A stretch of 34,830 nucleotides of DNA, taken from positions 1-34,830 of the IMG/VR virus record IMGVR_UViG_3300048000_000141, one strand, 5' to 3'. The DNA comes from a virus. The notes beneath the pieces were generated by a model that made no database searches, was not told the origin of the DNA, and saw only the letters and a list, made by a program, of their open reading frames with translations. This document shows positions 16,570-30,206 of the stretch, piece after piece (the stretch's first letter is position 1; each line of letters starts with the position of its first letter). A program made the translations under genes and the position numbers.

Positions 16570-16841
16570 TCTATATAGTTATCTTCTTCGTCCTCGTCCT
16601 CATCTTCGGTATCTACAGATATCCATTGAATGTGGTCGAGGTCTGCGGGAACTCCATCATTTATAAAACTTTCGTGATATTCTGACGCACTCTCCAGCAG
16701 CCCCTTAGCTGCATACGGATCACTGAATCGAACATCGTAAGATAGAGGAGAATTGTCATGCGAAGCAATAACTACATAGTTGCGGAAGTGCTCCCCCAGC
16801 ATACCTGTAACCTTATTAAGAACATCATTTTCAATCATCAT
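16566..16841 (-). CDS. Unknown acidic protein between terminase genes
   Basis: About 92 aa, starting MMIENDVLNKVTGMLGEHF. The frame is open up to an ATG at 16856, but the AGGAGG at 16848-16853 stands six bases before the ATG at 16841, so the internal ATG is the likely start. This is one of the few strong Shine-Dalgarno sequences in the window. The C-terminus is a run of Asp/Glu. It overlaps the small terminase end by 11 nt and the large terminase start by 4 nt, so it is probably a packaging-associated protein. No family was recognised. Confidence 0.78.
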   Translation of the reverse strand: MMIENDVLNKVTGMLGEHFRNYVVIASHDNSPLSYDVRFSDPYAAKGLLESASEYHESFINDGVPADLDHIQWISVDTEDEDEDEEDNYIE

Positions 16842-17385
16842 GCTTGTCCTCCTCACTCATAAATTCATCGTAGTCTTCTTCAACTATCTCAGCTTCTACA
16901 GTATTGACAAGTGCAGACTTTGCAACTTTTGAATAATCTACAGTCATCACCTTCATCTCTCCATTAAGAGTACCTTGAACGTCAACACTCTTGAGCTTCG
17001 GCTGCGTATAGCTGCAGATCTCCTTCCATATCGCTATCTTATCTCTCTTCTCCACATCAGGATCGGCAGCGTACCCAAGCAGCTCCTCAATCGGGTTGAT
17101 CCCCTTCTCGTAGAACAAAGCTAACAGTGCCTTGCGTTGTTGAGCAGGCGTAGGCGCAGAGTTCATAACTTCTAAGAACTGTTGCTTTATATCTATTTCT
17201 TTCTCTACCTTATGAAGCTTCTTCTGTGCAACCTTCATATCTTTCTCTGCTTTCATACGTTTACGATGACACCTGCTCCTTTTAGCAGCTTGTTGCTTAA
17301 CAACTTGTTTGGGCTTCTTGCCCGAAGCATATGTTCTACCATCTGGCACTAGTATCTGTATTGATGATTCATGGTCCTTTGTCAA
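16831..17385 (-). CDS. terS: Putative terminase small subunit
   Basis: A 184-aa protein at the head of the leftward operon, directly before the large terminase. The N-terminal third is very basic (KKPKQVVKQQAAKRSRCHRK and on), then a Lys-rich helix, then a segment GINPIEELLGYAADPDVEKR and IWKEICSYTQPKLKSVD that I associate with small-terminase-like proteins of marine phages. The acidic tail (residues 160-184) is also usual. The only available start is a TTG at 17385, because an in-frame TAG lies five codons upstream. A GCTCACAC repeat (17391-17398) ends just 5 nt before the start codon, so DNA or RNA binding there could control this gene. Function is inferred from position and character. Confidence 0.72.
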   Translation of the reverse strand: MTKDHESSIQILVPDGRTYASGKKPKQVVKQQAAKRSRCHRKRMKAEKDMKVAQKKLHKVEKEIDIKQQFLEVMNSAPTPAQQRKALLALFYEKGINPIEELLGYAADPDVEKRDKIAIWKEICSYTQPKLKSVDVQGTLNGEMKVMTVDYSKVAKSALVNTVEAEIVEEDYDEFMSEEDKHDD

Positions 17386-17390
17386 GAGTT

Positions 17391-17639
17391 GCTCACACTA
17401 TTCACACCTAGCTCACACTAATTTATGGGGGGTGTGAGCTAATTAAATTATAAGAGTATCAATGGTTTACGAATCTGCTCACACAATTCACACTTTTTTC
17501 TGGGAAAACTATTTTATTTTTTCTATAGGCTAATAAAGTGTGAAAAGTGTGAGCAATTACATAAGTCGTTGATAAAGATACTAACTTATAACATTCTGGT
17601 TGATTCAAAAAGTGTGAGCTGACTGTGAGCAGTGTGAGC
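17391..17639. repeat. Iteron-like cluster of GTGTGAGC / GCTCACAC
   Basis: Seven exact copies of an octamer lie within 249 bp: minus orientation at 17391-17398, 17411-17418 and 17477-17484; plus orientation at 17432-17439, 17547-17554, 17612-17619 and 17632-17639. A one-mismatch copy is at 17623-17630. Partial copies (CACAC or GTGTGA) sit about 4 nt from several of them, at 17403-17407, 17489-17493 and 17538-17543. Such a cluster next to the small terminase gene and between divergent operons may be an operator array, a replication origin or a packaging (pac) site. Confidence 0.85.
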
Positions 17640-17707: not shown

Positions 17708-18294
17708 CATGCTGGTAGGGACTCTATGTGTCGTCGACTCGCAGTTTCCCCCATCGGGGGTGGCAGTCAATCGATTCGTGCATCTCGGTCCACGGATCGT
17801 CGGACAAACGCGTCGACAGACCCATACATCCTATTGTACATGCACCTACGGATCCCACGACTCTCTGTTGCATATCATCACATGCATAAGGTGCTGAGTT
17901 GGAATATGTTATGTCGCATGAACAACAGGATAAAAGAATCGCGCTCTTTCAGAGCACCCTATCAGAAAAGATAGACTACACAAACCCTTGCACACAAGCA
18001 AGATACAAAAGACAGACACCGTATGGTTTCCGACCCGAACCCAACCCCCAAGAACCCTTCGGGTTTTCTGTGCAATCTACCGTCTTGCCTCGTGACGGGA
18101 TGACTCGCACGCAGTGTAGACCATCTCAAGTAACGAGCACTTTGGGTGGGCAGTCGGGTACACGGCTACTCGCGAGGCACGCCCATCGTTCTCAACGGAT
18201 CGTCACACCTGTCGCAACTCAAGTCCGCAAACAAACGGGCACTCTTGTCTTTTCGGCTGTTTGTGTGGACAGCTTGTTCAGGATTTTTCCTTTC

Positions 18295-18478
18295 TATTTT
18301 GACGGAATTGGCACAGCGACCTAGTAAAGGTAGAATTTCTTCCCCTGTGTTAATTAACTGTCTTAGTGTTCTAATGATGATCTAGTTACATAAATCAGGG
18401 TTACATTCAATCGGATTCCGATTGGTGTGAAATCTCCACCTTGACAAGGTCTTCTTCTGTGACAATTCCGTCAAAATA
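18295..18478. repeat. 22-bp inverted repeat around the early promoter and leader
   Basis: Bases 18295-18316 and 18457-18478 are reverse complements at 21 of 22 positions (core TTTTGACGGAATTG). The arms are 140 bp apart. The left arm covers the -35 box of the candidate early promoter; the right arm ends 15 nt before the first rightward ATG. Two smaller hairpins lie between them: AATCGG/CCGATT (18409-18423) and ACCTT/AAGGT (18438-18450). Two half-sites at this distance suit DNA looping by a repressor. Confidence 0.75.
18308..18336 (+). promoter_or_regulatory. Sigma70-like promoter for the rightward early operon
   Basis: TTGGCA at 18308-18313 and TAGAAT at 18331-18336 are separated by 17 bp; each differs from consensus by one base. 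Initiation would fall near 18343, leaving a leader of about 150 nt before the first rightward gene at 18494. The -35 box lies inside the left arm of the 22-bp inverted repeat. Confidence 0.6.
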
Positions 18479-18493
18479 ACGAAAGATAAAAAT

Positions 18494-18754
18494 ATGCCTA
18501 AACAAGCAACATCCAAACAAACTATCACCGAAAAGACTGGCAAGTGCGTCCGTTCATTCACGGAACCTCTTGAGTCAGGCGACTACGGTGCAACGCTCCT
18601 GGTCGAGAACGACGGGGCTCGCGAGTATGTCCGTGTTTACCACGACTGCTCCATTCCCAAAGGTGCTATCGTCACCTTCGATGTAGTCGACAACGGCTCA
18701 AGCGAGTTCATCGTCGTCACAGAGTTCAAGAAGGCAGACCGCCCAGAACTCTAA
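18494..18754 (+). CDS. First early gene: unknown 86-aa protein
   Basis: An 86-aa protein starting MPKQATSKQTITEKTG. After a basic, probably flexible N-terminus of about 15 residues it has an alternating strand pattern (YGATLLVENDGAREYVRVYH, then GAIVTFDVV and FIVVTEF), consistent with a small beta-barrel such as an OB-like or cold-shock-like fold; I do not recognise a family. It uses G/C-ending codons more than the genes that follow. As the first gene after the early promoter and looping operator it is a good candidate for an early regulator or host-takeover protein. A large stem-loop follows its stop codon. Confidence 0.75.
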   Translation: MPKQATSKQTITEKTGKCVRSFTEPLESGDYGATLLVENDGAREYVRVYHDCSIPKGAIVTFDVVDNGSSEFIVVTEFKKADRPEL

Positions 18755-18763
18755 CGAGCAACT

Positions 18764-18791
18764 TGGGAGTCGGGCTTCGGCTCGGCTCCCA
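18764..18791 (+). other. 12-bp hairpin with TTCG tetraloop, no T tract
   Basis: TGGGAGTCGGGC (18764-18775), loop TTCG, then GCTCGGCTCCCA (18780-18791); pairing is complete allowing two G-U pairs. The plus strand continues with an A-rich, not T-rich, sequence, so it does not look like an intrinsic terminator for rightward transcripts. An RNA processing or 3'-end-stabilising element is more likely. Confidence 0.7.
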
Positions 18792-18836
18792 TACTCTATT
18801 AAAAAAAGAAAGAAAAAGAAATAAATATATACTATT

Positions 18837-19457: not shown

Positions 19458-20318
19458 ATGCAATATACAATACAAGAAATACTCATTGGGATATCCAATG
19501 CCGATCGCTATGACGTTCGTGAACAAAACGGGGAGCTAATCAGTGACTACAAGTTCTGGTGGCGTGAGCTATTCAAAGAAGCCAAACTTACAGCCAAGAT
19601 GATCAGGCGTGAATCTATTCGTGACGGTATTGTCCCTCGTGACGATGACGACATCATGGTCACAATCATCGTTGATCAATGGCTTGCTGAGTTCAAATCG
19701 TATCAAGCACATTCACATCCCAGTGATGATCAGCTATGTAATGATATGTCGTGCATGCAGGCACTTGCCAAACAACAAGAGCAATATCTACTAGACATTC
19801 GTAGGGCATTTGCTAGTGCATGTAGACGCAAAGACACCAAGGCTATGCAACGCATACGCAAGCTGTACTATCAGGAGAAATCATCACAGCTTTCTTCTAT
19901 TCAGTACACGCACTTAGATGAGCCCACCACCAAAGAACCTGTATTCACACCTGAAGATCAAGAGTTCTTTGATGAGACTGAGCAACATGTACGCAAGCTC
20001 GACTATCAAGATGCATTCATACAAGATCCAGAATGTGATCCAAACGATTCACATTACATTGGTGACACACTGCGTATGAACAACGGCAAACCCCGTGGTA
20101 ACATTGGGTTACTCAATGGTTTCTATGAGCAGACACTACCTGAGCCTACTTATCGCACCAAAGATGCAAGACGCAGGTTATTCAAGACATTGCTCAACAC
20201 TGGCAGTGTCTATGATATTGAGAATGCATGTGGTATGCGTGGCTTCAAGAAAGGAGTACGCAACTCATACATACACATGTACGCAGACTCAAACAAAGAC
20301 GTAAAATGGAAATCGTAA
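19458..20318 (+). CDS. Unknown early protein (286 aa)
   Basis: A 286-aa protein, largely helical and charged. Notable stretches are KEAKLTAKMIRRESIRDG, an Asp run (RDDDDIMV, residues about 61-68), a Gln/Ala/Arg-rich helical middle (YLLDIRRAFASACRRKDTKA), and a C-terminal segment TKDARRRLFKTLLNTGSVYD that resembles a helix-turn-helix-like helical bundle. No family recognised and no catalytic motif seen. The gene follows a large hairpin and overlaps the next gene (a membrane protein) by 13 nt. Confidence 0.75.
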   Translation: MQYTIQEILIGISNADRYDVREQNGELISDYKFWWRELFKEAKLTAKMIRRESIRDGIVPRDDDDIMVTIIVDQWLAEFKSYQAHSHPSDDQLCNDMSCMQALAKQQEQYLLDIRRAFASACRRKDTKAMQRIRKLYYQEKSSQLSSIQYTHLDEPTTKEPVFTPEDQEFFDETEQHVRKLDYQDAFIQDPECDPNDSHYIGDTLRMNNGKPRGNIGLLNGFYEQTLPEPTYRTKDARRRLFKTLLNTGSVYDIENACGMRGFKKGVRNSYIHMYADSNKDVKWKS

Positions 20319-20614
20319 TTCTATCCTTTTTCTCATCGCTTGGTATTCTCCTTGTGTGCACACGCACACTTGGAGTTAACCGAGTAATCAAACACCGAAA
20401 GAAACTAGACATACTAGTAACTTTTGGTTTGCCAGCGTTATTTATTGGCACTTTTTCAGGTATGATTACAGCCTTCTTCACAGGACTGTGGTTCACTATA
20501 AAAACCATACTACTGGCACTAGTTATACCAAAGACCTTCCCTTCTTATGGTAACCAAGAAGATAGGCGTAATGATGCTAAAGGTAATCGTTCCTCTCGCC
20601 CTTACGGTGGTTAA
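20306..20614 (+). CDS. Small membrane protein (102 aa, two to three transmembrane segments)
   Basis: Starting at the ATG at 20306 inside the end of the preceding gene, the protein reads MEIVILSFFSSLGILLVCTR (first transmembrane helix), a short basic loop VNRVIKHRKKLD, and then two hydrophobic stretches, ILVTFGLPALFIGTFSGMIT and TGLWFTIKTILLALVIP. The C-terminus (about 25 residues) is polar, basic and probably cytoplasmic. Candidate roles include a holin-like protein or an early membrane protein, but its early location is far from the lysozyme gene and nothing decides between them. The frame continues upstream to 20228, but only the hydrophobic part looks like a real protein. Confidence 0.75.
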   Translation: MEIVILSFFSSLGILLVCTRTLGVNRVIKHRKKLDILVTFGLPALFIGTFSGMITAFFTGLWFTIKTILLALVIPKTFPSYGNQEDRRNDAKGNRSSRPYGG

Positions 20615-20886: not shown

Positions 20887-21111
20887 ATGGCAAGTGTAAC
20901 TATACGTTACGGTATGACAAACTCTGTCACCCGTGACTTTGAAAACAATACCACTATTTCTGACCTAGTCAGTGATAATGGTATTCGCGCAGCTCTGTCT
21001 GCTCCCGAGAATGTTCGTGCTGTTTCTGGTGGTCGCACACTAGAAGGACACGAGTACGCAACCTCGTTTACAAGCATTACCTTAGAGCAACAAGCTTCAA
21101 GCAAAGCTTAG
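20887..21111 (+). CDS. Ubiquitin-like (beta-grasp) modifier protein, PRTRC protein C-like
   Basis: A 74-aa protein, the length of ubiquitin (76 aa). MASVTIRYGMTNSVTRDFEN forms a beta-hairpin, TTISDLVSDNGIRAAL a helix, and VRAVSGGRTLEGHEYATSF then TSITLEQQ reproduce the ubiquitin order of strand, GG-turn, loop and last strand (compare IFAGKQLEDG...STLHLVLR). In bacterial PRTRC and related systems such a protein is activated by a ThiF-like E1 and passed to an E2. The tail after the last strand is QQASSKA and has no diglycine; the JAB peptidase encoded downstream may trim it, or it may be used as it is. It is the first gene of the cassette and is followed 51 nt later by the E2-like gene. Fold assignment is by pattern only. 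Confidence 0.8.
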   Translation: MASVTIRYGMTNSVTRDFENNTTISDLVSDNGIRAALSAPENVRAVSGGRTLEGHEYATSFTSITLEQQASSKA

Positions 21112-21162
21112 ATCTCCCACGAGCGTCCTGAGTATGACGAAACATAAAACTGCTCTTTTATT

Positions 21163-21945
21163 ATGTCAGAAAAATATCTAGATCAAGAATTTATCCTACG
21201 CAGTGACGGTAAATTCTACAAACGCACCACTGTAATATCTCCTGTACACAACGCAGACCAGATGTTATCTAATGTCAAGGATAGTGGCATTCCTGTTATA
21301 TATCCTTTTGAACAAACAATAAACATACCAGACTTGGATAAAAACTTTCCAATGTACAGTATGGTATACAGCCACCAGCCACACATTGTAACTACATTTA
21401 TTAAACTAAATGAGTTTCCGTTTCCAGAATCTTGGTTGTACAAATCGTATCAAGCACAACCACACTACTATTTAGGCATTGGTAACACACGAGATCGTGA
21501 TATAGCAGAAACACGATCTATAGCTTGGCAACCAACTATAGACGGGCTTGAGCTTTTTGTTAGTGCAGTAGTAGACACAAACAAAAATTCAATTAGCAAT
21601 CCAATCTTGTTTGTTGTAGATCAAACTAAAACACCGTATACTCCAAACATTGCTAATGTTTTCGACGATGGTCGAATCTGCACTGGTCCTGACTGGAAGC
21701 TAGACTTCGATAAAGGCTATGAGCTAGCTACACTCACTGACAACATACGCAACCTGTATCGCACACCGTGCAACAACGATCTTAGAAACCACGAACGTGA
21801 ACGTGAGTATATGCGGTTTAATGAACAAGGTCATACTCTTCCTTGCCTCTCAGAACTGGGTCTAATCGCTGATAATGATTACAGATTCTACATAAAACAT
21901 ACAAATTCAAAAGTCATTGATTTCGTTCAAAATGTCCAATTCTAA
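21163..21945 (+). CDS. E2-like ubiquitin-conjugating enzyme (PRTRC protein B / Prok-E2-like)
   Basis: A 260-aa protein. The core signature is at residues 158-176: PYTPNIANVFDDGRICTGP. This matches the E2 active-site pattern (PN-hydrophobic...G-x-[IV]-C), with Cys173 as the predicted thioester cysteine. Ahead of it lie strands expected for an E2 fold (LELFVSAVV at 129-137, NPILFVVDQ at 146-154), and behind it helical sequence (YELATLTDNIRNLYR). The region before residue 120 resembles nothing I can name and may be an extra domain, as in PRTRC protein B, where the E2-like domain is also part of a longer protein. It would take the Ubl from the ThiF-like E1. The next gene begins inside its last 14 nt. 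Confidence 0.8.
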   Translation: MSEKYLDQEFILRSDGKFYKRTTVISPVHNADQMLSNVKDSGIPVIYPFEQTINIPDLDKNFPMYSMVYSHQPHIVTTFIKLNEFPFPESWLYKSYQAQPHYYLGIGNTRDRDIAETRSIAWQPTIDGLELFVSAVVDTNKNSISNPILFVVDQTKTPYTPNIANVFDDGRICTGPDWKLDFDKGYELATLTDNIRNLYRTPCNNDLRNHEREREYMRFNEQGHTLPCLSELGLIADNDYRFYIKHTNSKVIDFVQNVQF

Positions 21946-22276
21946 TATATTCCAAGAAATTAATACAGCTTCTGTAGTTGCAAATAACTGTCACAATTGG
22001 TTCCAAGACGCTAGTAACAATGTAAACCGTAGATATTACACTGGCATGCAGGATAACATACGTTCACAATCTGAAAAAGAACTTGATACATATCCTGTAG
22101 ACAACCCACTCAACGAAGAAGATACGCGTATACTATTTAAAATACTGCGCAAAGAGTATGCAGATTGTGGTCGTAAGCGTGGTGCAGTTCTACGCTATAT
22201 TAAAGCTTACCGTGAACTTAAGCCAGAACCAATCGGTCAACGGCTTTACAACCAACTAACTAATTATGAAACCTAA
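21932..22276 (+). CDS. Unknown cassette protein X between E2 and E1 (114 aa)
   Basis: The ATG at 21932 (MSNSNIFQEINTASVVANNC) overlaps the E2 stop by 14 nt, and the E1 start lies inside its last 11 nt, so it is coupled into the cassette. The protein is polar and helical, with a C-terminal segment LFKILRKEYADCGRKRGAVL then RYIKAYRELKPEPIGQRLYNQL. It contains two cysteines (in NNCHNW and ADCGRK), too few for a RING-type zinc site. It is not a known PRTRC or Bil component to my knowledge. It could be an adaptor, a target-recruitment subunit, or a target of modification itself. Confidence 0.75.
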   Translation: MSNSNIFQEINTASVVANNCHNWFQDASNNVNRRYYTGMQDNIRSQSEKELDTYPVDNPLNEEDTRILFKILRKEYADCGRKRGAVLRYIKAYRELKPEPIGQRLYNQLTNYET

Positions 22277-22991
22277 ACTAAATGCAGTAATCATCGGTGC
22301 TGGTGGTGTTACAAGTTACATGCTACCAGCATTGCGTAGCAGTTTTGACGCACACTTAACCATTATCGACGGTGACATACTCGAGAAAAAAAATCTCGAT
22401 CGTCAACTATTCCGTAACAACATGGTGGGGCAATACAAATGTGTTGCTCTAATGAAACAATACTACTTCAAGAAAAGTGAAGGTCAGGCAATCAGGTCAT
22501 ACTTTGACTTGGGTATGCTAGACACAGAATACAAATTCTGGTTCTCACAAGCAGATGTTATTATCTGCGCTGTTGACAATCATCCTGCTCGCAAAGCAGC
22601 AATCGACGCAGCTAAAATGCTCAACACACCAATCGTTATATGTGCTAACGAGTATCATACAAGTCAAGCACTCTATTATGATCCACATCTTGCTAACCAT
22701 CTTGAGCTGCCAATGTTTGATCCTATACTTAGATACCCTGAAATTAGTACTGACCAATCAGGCAGTCCAATTAGTTGCCAAGGTATTGCACTAGAATCTA
22801 CACCACAACTTGCTACAGCTAATCAAGTAGCTGGTGCTTTTGGCAACTTCTTATTATGGTCTTGGTTTGGTATGCCAAAATGCAAAGATGAAAATCTAAA
22901 GTATATGCCAATCGAATTCCAATCTACATTCTCTAGAATGCAAACCACAACTATTGATGACCTCAAAAAACTCAGCAAAAAAGCCAGCTAA
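22266..22991 (+). CDS. ThiF/E1-like adenylyltransferase (Ubl-activating enzyme)
   Basis: A 241-aa ThiF/E1-type enzyme that would adenylate the Ubl C-terminus and pass it on as a thioester. Visible motifs: nucleotide-binding GAGGVTS (11-17), acidic end of strand 2 with IDGD (34-37), the E1 signature NLDRQLF (43-49, containing the Asn, Arg and Gln that contact ATP), a Lys at 58 in VGQYKC, and the magnesium-binding Asp104 in CAVDNHPAR (101-109). Cys171 in SPISCQGIALESTPQ is the candidate catalytic cysteine, placed before a PQ-x-ATANQVAGAFGN helix typical of ThiF proteins. Length (240-270 aa) matches PRTRC ThiF. The start overlaps the preceding gene by 11 nt; its end overlaps the JAB gene by 35 nt. 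Confidence 0.9.
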   Translation: MKPKLNAVIIGAGGVTSYMLPALRSSFDAHLTIIDGDILEKKNLDRQLFRNNMVGQYKCVALMKQYYFKKSEGQAIRSYFDLGMLDTEYKFWFSQADVIICAVDNHPARKAAIDAAKMLNTPIVICANEYHTSQALYYDPHLANHLELPMFDPILRYPEISTDQSGSPISCQGIALESTPQLATANQVAGAFGNFLLWSWFGMPKCKDENLKYMPIEFQSTFSRMQTTTIDDLKKLSKKAS

Positions 22992-24126
22992 TGTTTACCA
23001 CGAAGGTGCTATCTACCAGGCTGTAGAAACAACCTTGTGCACAACTTACACTAAGCTTCAAGATATCCAAGAAGTAGAAAAACTTACACCAGTATGGAAT
23101 GGTAAAAAGATACCACTTCACATGTGGAAAGAAATTCTTGCTTTTATGAAACAAAGCTATAACGAACTCAAATCAGAGACTCTGCTGTATCTCTTCTACG
23201 ATGAAGCTGCATCACAGCCCTGGCTGTATTGGGTTCCTCCACAAGAAACTGCTGGCATGACTGTCAAGTCTTCTCCTGATCATCCTGACTACATTAAGCA
23301 GCGGGCTGCATACCCTGACACTATGTTTGGCACAGTGCACCACCACTGTTCTACTTCTGCGTTTCAATCTGGCACAGATGAAGCAGACGAAGTAAACCGT
23401 GAGGGTTTGCACTTTACTGTTGGTAATCTTAACAACTCAGATACAGTTGATGTCCACTTTCGTATTACGTTAGGTGGTACACATGCTGAACTTGATGCTC
23501 ATACCTACATTGAAATGGATGAATCACCTTTCAAAAAAACATGTCGTGTTCCTCAAACGATACAAAACCAAGCTCGCACTGAACTACACAAAATGGACGT
23601 GTGCACTCTGCCTGACATAAAACAATACAAGTTTGAAACAGAAATGCAGAATGTTAGTAAAAAAACATATACGCCAATTACACATGCTCCATACAGCCAA
23701 CGTTCACTTGGTTGGGATTATGAACCCATATCTAAAAAAAACATGGTCGAAGACGAAAATATGTTAGATGATCAACAAATATTAGCAGAAACTTTTGTAG
23801 AATCTGTTCTCACCGACTGGCATTTCGAAGAAATACTACAAAGTTATTATCAATATACTAATGACACTCTTAAAATTTCTGATCTTATGCACGCCCAACT
23901 CGAAGAAGAAGATGTTCGTGTTGATCTTATAACAATGTTTAACGATACAAGATATACAAATTCACAAGAATATGCAGAAACTCTTACATCAATTCAAATG
24001 TTTCTTCAAGAACAAAGTAACTTGGGGGTTGCATTTTCAACAAAAGAACTTATCCATGGACTTAACACTATCAGCTATGACCAAGGAACAGGAGTTCAAC
24101 AAATGGATAAGGAGAATGTTTTATGA
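22957..24126 (+). CDS. JAB/JAMM-domain isopeptidase (deubiquitinase-like), 389 aa
   Basis: A metalloprotease of the kind that removes or matures ubiquitin-like proteins. Numbering from a TTG at 22954 (the ATG at 22957 is preferred), residues 129-142 read HHHCSTSAFQSGTD. His129, His131, Ser139 and Asp142 fit the JAMM signature H-x-H-x7-S-x2-D exactly; Glu71 or Glu75 upstream is the likely catalytic acid. The domain spans about residues 50-190 (strand LYWVP and then THAELDAHTYIEMDE). The remaining 200 residues are acidic, helical and of unknown function, which is unusually long for a bacterial JAB (150-200 aa). The start lies within the end of the E1 gene, and a nuclease gene starts inside its 3' end. 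Confidence 0.9.
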   Translation: MTSKNSAKKPANVYHEGAIYQAVETTLCTTYTKLQDIQEVEKLTPVWNGKKIPLHMWKEILAFMKQSYNELKSETLLYLFYDEAASQPWLYWVPPQETAGMTVKSSPDHPDYIKQRAAYPDTMFGTVHHHCSTSAFQSGTDEADEVNREGLHFTVGNLNNSDTVDVHFRITLGGTHAELDAHTYIEMDESPFKKTCRVPQTIQNQARTELHKMDVCTLPDIKQYKFETEMQNVSKKTYTPITHAPYSQRSLGWDYEPISKKNMVEDENMLDDQQILAETFVESVLTDWHFEEILQSYYQYTNDTLKISDLMHAQLEEEDVRVDLITMFNDTRYTNSQEYAETLTSIQMFLQEQSNLGVAFSTKELIHGLNTISYDQGTGVQQMDKENVL

Positions 24127-28667: not shown

Positions 28668-30206
28668 ATGATTCCAATAGCAGACCTGTCTTTTAAATTC
28701 CACGAGTTGTTCGTGTCCAACCCCAATGTGTATGGTCAAACATCACTTACAGGTAAGACGCGAAATCGTGACGGTAAAGCAGATTCAAAATCATTCCTAG
28801 TCAAAGAAGCTATTGACCCAACAGTGTGGGAATCACACCTTAAAGGTGAACGCATCATTGGTTGCACTCCACTAATTAACGAAGACCAGGTTCGCTGGGG
28901 TGCACTAGATGTAGATGTATACCAAGACTCTAAAACTCTAGAAGGTATCATTAAACAAGTTCAAGAATCTAAACTACCTTTTGTAGTTTGCAGATCTAAA
29001 TCAGGAGGTGCACATGTATACTTATTCTTCTCTGAAGAAGTATCTGCGTACAATGTTATCGACAAACTTAAATCTTTCTCCGCCTTCTTTGGTCAAGGTG
29101 CTTGTGAGATATACCCCAAACAACCTAAAATAGGTGATCGTAAAGACAACAGCAAATACGGCAACTGGATAAACATGCCATACTCTGGCAACCCTACATT
29201 GCAATATGGATTTGATAAAGATGGCAAAGCACTTAACCCTGAAGAATTTATTACTTATGCACTAGCACAACAGCTAACTAAAGAACAGTTTGAACAACTA
29301 ACTGTTCCAGCCTCAGGCGAAGATATATTACCCGAAGGTCCACCGTGTCTTAATTACATCTTTCAAAAACGTACACAGCACAGCGAGTCTCGTAATGTTA
29401 CACTATCAAACGTAGCTGTGTATTTAAAAAAAGCACAACCCACTGATTGGAAACATCGGCTTATGCAGTTTAATCGCAAGTTTGCAGAGCCACTAGAAGA
29501 CAGAGAAGTAGAAGCCATTATTAATTCATACGGCAAAAAAGATTACAAGTATCAATGCTCTAGCCAACCGTTGTGCAAGTACTGTGACGCTAGTCTTTGC
29601 GGACAACGTAAACACGGTATTGGTGGAGAAGAATTTCTACCTAACAATCGCTCTCTTATACAATTAAAAAGTGAGCCACCCTTGTGGTTTTTAACTTTAG
29701 ACGACGCAGAGTTACAACTAACTACTGAACAATTTGATAACTTCAACCAGTTTAATCAAAAGGTTATGGAAAAACTGTTGTTTAAGTATCCGCCTATTAA
29801 ACAAGAAGACTGGGTTAAGCAACAAAATCTGCTATTAAAAAACTGCACACAGATTGAAATACCGTTTGAAATGACACCTCTTGGTCAGTTAGTAGAGTAT
29901 GTGTCGATATTCTGTGCAAACGCCAGTGAAGACAGTGACAGACTTAAAAGTGGTCCTGTTAAAAAAGGACAATTCTATTTATTTAGAATGATTGATCTTA
30001 AAGATTATCTTAATCAACAACGCTTCAATGAATTACCTGACAACAAAATATTATCTGCTATTAAACAAGTTCTTAAAGCAGATGCAATAACCCACTCAAT
30101 TAAATCACCAAAATTAAATGTTAGGTGTTGGCGAATACATAAAGATAACTTACATATTGACCCAAGTACACCTTTCCCAGATTTCAATACAGATGAGCCA
30201 TACTAA
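28668..30206 (+). CDS. Archaeo-eukaryotic-type primase (AEP), TOTE-like
   Basis: A 512-aa primase. The AEP catalytic core is visible as WGALDVDVY (Asp81, Asp83), the VCRSKSGGAHVYLFF strand (108-121, with His116) and YGNWINMPYSG (164-173), the layout typical of TOTE-like and phage AEP primases. Behind it is PPCLNY (Cys227) and then CSSQPLCKYCDASLC (Cys297, 303, 306, 311), which may bind Zn or an Fe-S cluster like the PriL/PriCT domain. The last 200 residues are helical and unassigned. It replaces the TOPRIM primase-helicase (gp4) of T7 and works beside the Pol A enzyme. The SF1 helicase begins inside its last 14 nt. Confidence 0.9.
   Translation: MIPIADLSFKFHELFVSNPNVYGQTSLTGKTRNRDGKADSKSFLVKEAIDPTVWESHLKGERIIGCTPLINEDQVRWGALDVDVYQDSKTLEGIIKQVQESKLPFVVCRSKSGGAHVYLFFSEEVSAYNVIDKLKSFSAFFGQGACEIYPKQPKIGDRKDNSKYGNWINMPYSGNPTLQYGFDKDGKALNPEEFITYALAQQLTKEQFEQLTVPASGEDILPEGPPCLNYIFQKRTQHSESRNVTLSNVAVYLKKAQPTDWKHRLMQFNRKFAEPLEDREVEAIINSYGKKDYKYQCSSQPLCKYCDASLCGQRKHGIGGEEFLPNNRSLIQLKSEPPLWFLTLDDAELQLTTEQFDNFNQFNQKVMEKLLFKYPPIKQEDWVKQQNLLLKNCTQIEIPFEMTPLGQLVEYVSIFCANASEDSDRLKSGPVKKGQFYLFRMIDLKDYLNQQRFNELPDNKILSAIKQVLKADAITHSIKSPKLNVRCWRIHKDNLHIDPSTPFPDFNTDEPY

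Follow-up and report, generated by a model that had tools for sequence, protein, structure and literature searches.

What does a dense cluster of short repeats do at the point where the late and early genes of a phage diverge, and which protein reads it? The cluster considered here lies at positions 17391-17639 of the IMG/VR virus record IMGVR_UViG_3300048000_000141, which was analysed whole (the window, 34.8 kb, not a complete genome), and consists of copies of the octamer GTGTGAGC in both orientations beside the small terminase gene (terS). The original prediction, made from the letters of the window, offered three functions for it: an operator of the late operon, an origin, or a packaging recognition site bound by the small terminase. 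The symmetry of the array, its fixed spacings, its position and its covariation with replication genes now favour the origin, which we regard, taken alone, as the probable function by a modest degree. For the fuller statement, that the array is a replication origin built of iterons and sites for integration host factor (IHF) and read most likely by the winged helix of a phage primase, we judge the chances to be about even.

Architecture of the octamer array

Seven exact copies of GTGTGAGC fall within the cluster (Table 1) and none in the rest of the window. The expectation for the window is 1.05 copies, and none of 100 shuffles reached seven; the top copy number of any 8-mer per 249-bp stretch was seven here and at most four in 60 first-order Markov shuffles. 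These tests agree with the initial claim that seven exact copies and one near copy within 249 bp are beyond chance. The copies first listed were correct, while three degenerate units (GTGTGA followed by two bases), the mirror symmetry and two IHF-consensus sites had been missed.

Exact and degenerate units together number 11 and face outward on both sides of the array. Ten of them stand in exact two-fold symmetry about an axis at 17515.5, with centres at -121, -112, -101, -35 and -26 on one side and at +26, +35, +100, +111 and +120 on the other. A unit beside a C/G run, at the place matching the remaining one (17432), occurs in most relatives. At -52.5 and +52.5 from the axis the sequence matches the IHF consensus WATCAANNNNTTR perfectly; these two positions are putative binding sites of IHF, and about 2.8 such matches are expected by chance over the whole window. 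The order of elements is thus triplet, IHF-consensus site, doublet, 44-bp AT-rich centre (about 80% A+T in the window), doublet, IHF-consensus site and triplet.

The array forms the divergence point of leftward late genes and rightward early genes. Up to about 17.4 kb, head, tail and packaging genes lie on the minus strand; early and replication genes occupy the plus strand right of 18.5 kb, and the roughly 1.1 kb between the two blocks holds no convincing genes.

Table 1. Positions of the array elements, the neighbouring signals and the genes discussed in the text.
Feature	Positions	Strand	Remarks
Small terminase gene	16831-17349	-	GTG start at 17349; named from its position before terL
Late promoter	17357-17385	-	TTGACA (17385-17380), 17 bp, AATACA (17362-17357)
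Proximal triplet	17391-17418	-	17391-17398 GTGTGAGC, 17400-17407 GTGTGAAT (degenerate), 17411-17418 GTGTGAGC; layout kept in 50 non-redundant relatives
Single unit	17432-17439	+	GTGTGAGC; adjoins a G6 run; sole unit without a mirror partner
IHF-consensus site	17457-17469	+	TATCAATGGTTTA; consensus WATCAANNNNTTR
Inner doublet	17477-17493	-	17477-17484 GTGTGAGC, 17486-17493 GTGTGAAT (degenerate); 9-bp spacing
AT-rich centre	17494-17537		44 bp; axis 17515.5; sequence not conserved, length nearly so
Inner doublet	17538-17554	+	17538-17545 GTGTGAAA (degenerate), 17547-17554 GTGTGAGC
IHF-consensus site	17562-17574	-	TATCAACGACTTA; the array's most conserved element in relatives
Distal triplet	17612-17639	+	17612-17619 GTGTGAGC, 17623-17630 CTGTGAGC (near copy), 17632-17639 GTGTGAGC
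GGTAGGGAC element	17714-17722	+	Conserved; lies outside the distal triplet
AEP-TOTE primase, candidate reader	28668-30206	+	Pfam AEP-TOTE E=2e-13; predicted winged helix at residues about 404-491 (29877-30140)

Conservation of the layout and replacement of the unit

Relatives were collected by small-terminase scans of viral contigs, which gave 51 and then 80 loci, plus one contig in a Sneathiella metagenome-assembled genome; the layout statistics rest on the arrays of 50 non-redundant relatives. A search for the same repeat in related phages had been proposed at the outset. The octamer itself recurs in the six closest relatives, where it is identical to GTGTGAGC; in the remaining ones the layout is kept and the octamer is different, altered in all units of each genome together. 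The words found there are GTGTCTAT, GTGTCAAC, GTGTCTGT, GTGTGATA/GTGTGACA, GTGTCTAG, GTGTCTGG, GTGTCAGG, GTGTCACA, GTGTACCA, GTGTGACC, GTGTGAAC and GTGTACTT, with TTGACTACA at one locus (L144).

Within the array the distances are rigid. The first IHF-consensus site is 24 bp from the doublet in 46 of 50 arrays, the second doublet is 24 bp from its IHF-consensus site in 43 of 44, the second IHF-consensus site is 50-51 bp from the triplet in every one of the 44 arrays measured, and the centre has a length of 44-47 bp in 45 of 50. The distance from the triplet to the -35 box of the late promoter is loose, taking many values from 1 to 16 bp across the 50 arrays, so the array appears to be one rigid unit to which the promoter is not tied. 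A fixed layout whose repeats change in concert argues for a replication start with fast-changing recognition rather than for a packaging site.

IHF sites between repeated boxes, and boxes that are species-specific, are also known from P1/P7 parS and lambda attP, and these shared features would suit a parS-like partition site or an attP-like recombination site that uses IHF. Such a function is very improbable: no ParA, ParB or recombinase family was matched among the window proteins scanned, which are not all the proteins of this incomplete genome, the centre is not a conserved core, and the gene set looks lytic. Inspection by eye of the intergenic region of pelagiphage Greip revealed nothing resembling the array, an Rfam search gave no relevant match, and no description of the array was found in the literature searched.

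Neighbouring genes and the late promoter

The position of the array directly upstream of terS, together with its repeats and IHF-consensus sites, recalls lambda cosB with its elements R3, R2, R1 and I1 (PMC4856287). If it were a packaging initiation site, a doubled form of the cosB pattern, terminase would bind the octamers and cut in or near the centre. The protein and its supposed boxes do not change together, as they would at a lambda-type cos: the small terminases of L136 and L140 are 96.7% identical and their units differ, while L140 and L143 share a unit at 94.0% identity, and L144 combines a wholly different unit with a nearly unchanged basic N-terminal region. Because the sequence of the small terminase does not track the changes of unit, its reading of the repeats, which had been proposed originally, appears very unlikely. 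At the N-terminus, a low-confidence structural model of the protein (mean predicted local distance difference test score, pLDDT, of 67; predicted template modelling score, pTM, of 0.32) places a long helix and shows no clear winged helix. The sequence of the centre lacks the conservation expected of a nicking site. Contig ends are scattered 130-1400 bp upstream of terS with none recurring at the array, and near-complete relatives open at differing places; the scattered ends speak against a fixed genome terminus at the array. Taken together, these observations make a packaging site unlikely.

The start of terS had been placed at a TTG five bases past the nearest octamer copy. That spacing is correct, and the TTG belongs to the -35 box TTGACA: in relatives it is out of frame with the gene (L163, L118) or followed by a stop (L126, L095, L138), which places the start at the GTG at 17349. 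As this GTG lies just a few bases past the -10 box, the message may be nearly leaderless. The small terminase protein matched nothing in PHROGs at E 1e-3 and no Pfam family above the curated threshold, and neither it nor the product of the open reading frame (ORF) 19458-20318 had a detectable relative among 50,697 cultured-phage records searched. In the L129 contig (G018:C1:19104-20410) the large terminase is split into two overlapping frames, by a frameshift or a sequencing error.

Three ORFs on the early side were also considered as readers and rejected. Two relatives, G023 and G027, share their array and match at 95-100% identity in adjacent genes, and the segment at 18.3-20.3 kb is replaced by a distant version, a comparison in which chimeric assembly is not fully excludable. 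The exchanged segment behaves as a cassette and holds an inverted repeat, the first early gene (ORF 18494-18754, o86) and ORF 19458-20318 (o286, 29% identical between the two), so both proteins are swapped while the array stays the same. The second of these had at first looked right because it is strongly divergent between octamer groups. ORF 21163-21945 (o260) is 61% identical between the window and G003, which belong to one octamer group, and its variation is unrelated to the octamer. Comparisons among the relatives thus support the view that neither the small terminase nor the first early protein nor the product of ORF 19458-20318 follows the octamer.

Some further features of the early region were recorded. 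The inverted repeat is long and imperfect (18021-18339 and 18429-18794, 69% identity), and its right arm holds ORF 18494-18754; the left arm resembles a duplicate of the right one that has undergone many small deletions. A comparable pair is present in L003, L005, L006, L036, L040 and L047, and the left arms of the window and of L005/L006 are no longer alignable, as if repeatedly recopied from the right arm. Downstream, 20887-24126 forms a ubiquitin-like conjugation module with a ThiF/E1 protein (Pfam E=3e-15) and a weak JAB match in 22954-24126. Its small protein 20887-21111 may be ubiquitin-like, and the fast-evolving product of 21163-21945 resembles, by eye, PRTRC-type E2 proteins.

An operator at this locus would have a phage regulator on the array, switching the late promoter and perhaps an outward one too, with an IHF-aided loop. 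A promoter of the form TTGAC[AT], N17 and a -10-like hexamer (consensus CATAA) does lie next to the proximal triplet in all 50 relatives, and the conserved GGTAGGGAC stands on the outer side of the array. In temperate phages, moreover, operators are known to change in concert with repressor specificity. Set against this, the triplet keeps neither a fixed distance nor a fixed helical phase to the -35 box, whereas the internal distances are nearly rigid; the two nearest early-side genes can be swapped without a change in the array, and no regulator was identified. We therefore consider a divergent operator doubtful as the main function. The proposed operator of the late operon may survive as a secondary role beside an origin, given a promoter 1-16 bp past the triplet, although the array is not built around that promoter. 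A CCCCC-GGGGG hairpin sequence follows GGTAGGGAC at about 17748-17758, and both are kept in most of the family.

The primase as candidate reader and comparison with known systems

With an origin as the preferred reading, the probable reader of the octamer is the AEP-TOTE primase, through its C-terminal winged helix. This domain was predicted with a pLDDT near 90 by AlphaFold2 in an alignment with 25 relatives, and nowhere does the protein vary more than in the wing (residues 473-486). When Foldseek candidates were compared with the structural aligner VIA, TcpK-oriT (Z 8.3), Cch of the staphylococcal cassette chromosome mec (SCCmec; 6.2) and Rep of the Staphylococcus aureus pathogenicity island (SaPI) SaPIBov1 (5.9) stood at or near the top, and we treat this modelled likeness to iteron-binding domains as a lead. 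Iteron binding by SaPI Rep and SCCmec Cch2 resides in their C-terminal domains (PMC7581432). By sequence, the primase C-terminus had no relative in the PDB, the sole matches, to kinases at E about 0.6, being chance. The origin-binding domain of P4 alpha was absent among the structural matches listed, which excludes nothing, and the Pfam search of the primase gave no helicase domain.

The analysis also covered cultured phages whose primase is homologous (about 28-36% identity), eight of them by shuffles. Seven of these eight siphophages have an octamer cluster immediately upstream of the primase gene, namely Acinetobacter DMU1 and 53, Klebsiella K21lambda1 and VLCpiS6a, Salmonella PMBT28, Pseudomonas PSA28 and Providencia Kokobel2, and 0 of 300 shuffles reached the observed counts, for 6-mers and 8-mers alike. 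The clusters comprise a tandem octamer triplet plus inverted copies. Like the array in the window, they go with a homologous primase, whose C-terminal region aligns to the winged helix, and with a lineage-specific octamer (GAGCAACC; GAGTAACC/GAGAAACC; TGGAACGG; TGGAACC). Unlike it, they lie upstream of the primase gene, their tandem spacing is 8 bp where measured (DMU1 and PSA28), and no IHF-consensus site was found near the clusters checked. The presence of clusters upstream of homologous primases indicates that the octamer habit accompanies this primase across phages of different morphology. DMU1, VLCpiS6a and PSA28 have a second octamer cluster elsewhere; the one in DMU1 (L272, 43113-43317) is in inverse orientation just upstream of terS.

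Covariation among the relatives points towards replication genes. The Mantel correlation with octamer distance was 0.68 for UvrD and 0.66 for the primase, as compared with 0.49 for the large terminase (TerL), 0.48 for the small terminase (TerS) and -0.04 for the metallophosphatase, so by this measure the octamer tracks replication genes better than packaging genes. The window itself is mosaic: its TerS and TerL are nearest to those of G001 (GTGTCTAT, GTGTC clade), and its primase, gp34-like protein, UvrD and octamer are nearer to the GTGTG/GTGTA clade.

Several observations weigh against an origin read by the primase. The primase gene is 11 kb away from the array. Two cultured phages with a related primase depart from the pattern, as Barton has no clear octamer cluster upstream of the primase gene and MW202510 shows no clear cluster. 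The Z values obtained with VIA, 6-8, are of middling size, and Foldseek returned no match to the winged helix at E<0.001 (SaPI Rep, E 0.17). The centre is not AT-rich in every relative, averaging 72% A+T with a range of 52-84%. Among the proteins compared, the best octamer correlation belongs to a membrane protein (20228-20614; Mantel r 0.79), and a window-level partial covariation test does not single out the primase wing, its top windows falling in a membrane protein and in structural proteins. With 11-15 related genomes the partial test lacks power, and since all genomes are related covariation is weak evidence; by itself it does not identify the reader of the octamer.

On balance we propose that the cluster would be the initiator-binding core of a phage replication origin. 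On either side of the centre a phage protein would bind the octamers, grouped in doublets and triplets that face outward. Host IHF would introduce a bend between triplet and doublet, left and right, and so fold the 250 bp as a complex with two-fold symmetry. At the AT-rich centre the DNA would then open, and two forks would depart in opposite directions, each co-directional with the genes of its side. The primase that makes the primers would itself mark the origin, in the manner of phage P4 alpha and SaPI Rep.

The array offers a 250-bp target for testing an origin in this uncultured marine phage family; we know of no mapped origin for such marine phages. The series of arrays would show how readily replication specificity is replaced, and with about a dozen recognition words in one fixed scaffold the protein-DNA code of a winged-helix initiator would be directly readable. 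It is conceivable, and we suggest it tentatively, that the array represents a new class of origin, an exactly two-fold-symmetric array of IHF sites and iterons for which the reader is a winged helix on an AEP primase without a helicase. The recognition word of such an array would be rewritten repeatedly and in concert between close relatives and would give each lineage a private origin closed to co-infecting relatives and satellites.

Among known systems, lambda cosB (R3-IHF-R2-R1 beside Nu1) shares with the array its repeated boxes, an IHF site and a place directly upstream of the small-terminase gene. It differs in that the boxes in the window do not track the small terminase, the array is double and mirror-symmetric, and the centre is unconserved, with no conserved nicking site. 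As changes in the sites are not matched by the small terminase, we do not class the array among lambda-type cos sites.

In the origins of SaPIs and other phage-inducible chromosomal islands (PICIs), an AT-rich region always lies between two sets of iterons (PMC6092414), an arrangement that is present in the window. The iteron-binding C-terminal domain of the initiator at such origins, as in SaPIBov1 Rep-ori, is resembled by the predicted winged helix of the primase. In the window, by contrast, the two sets mirror each other exactly and have IHF-consensus sites between their units, and the array lies beside terS, not directly downstream of its candidate initiator, which is an AEP primase without a helicase domain. 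As the array does not adjoin the candidate initiator gene, we do not class it as a SaPI-type origin.

In phage P4, the octamer repeats of ori1 and crr are read by the C-terminal domain of the primase alpha, and in both respects the system resembles the one proposed here. Alpha is a primase-helicase fusion and its repeats lie in two separate regions, unlike the single array of the window, and we know of no mirror-placed IHF sites in P4. A link between priming and initiation is known mainly from P4 alpha and the Rep proteins of satellites; should the primase prove to be the reader, the two processes would be joined here as well, by a stand-alone AEP primase that marks the origin.
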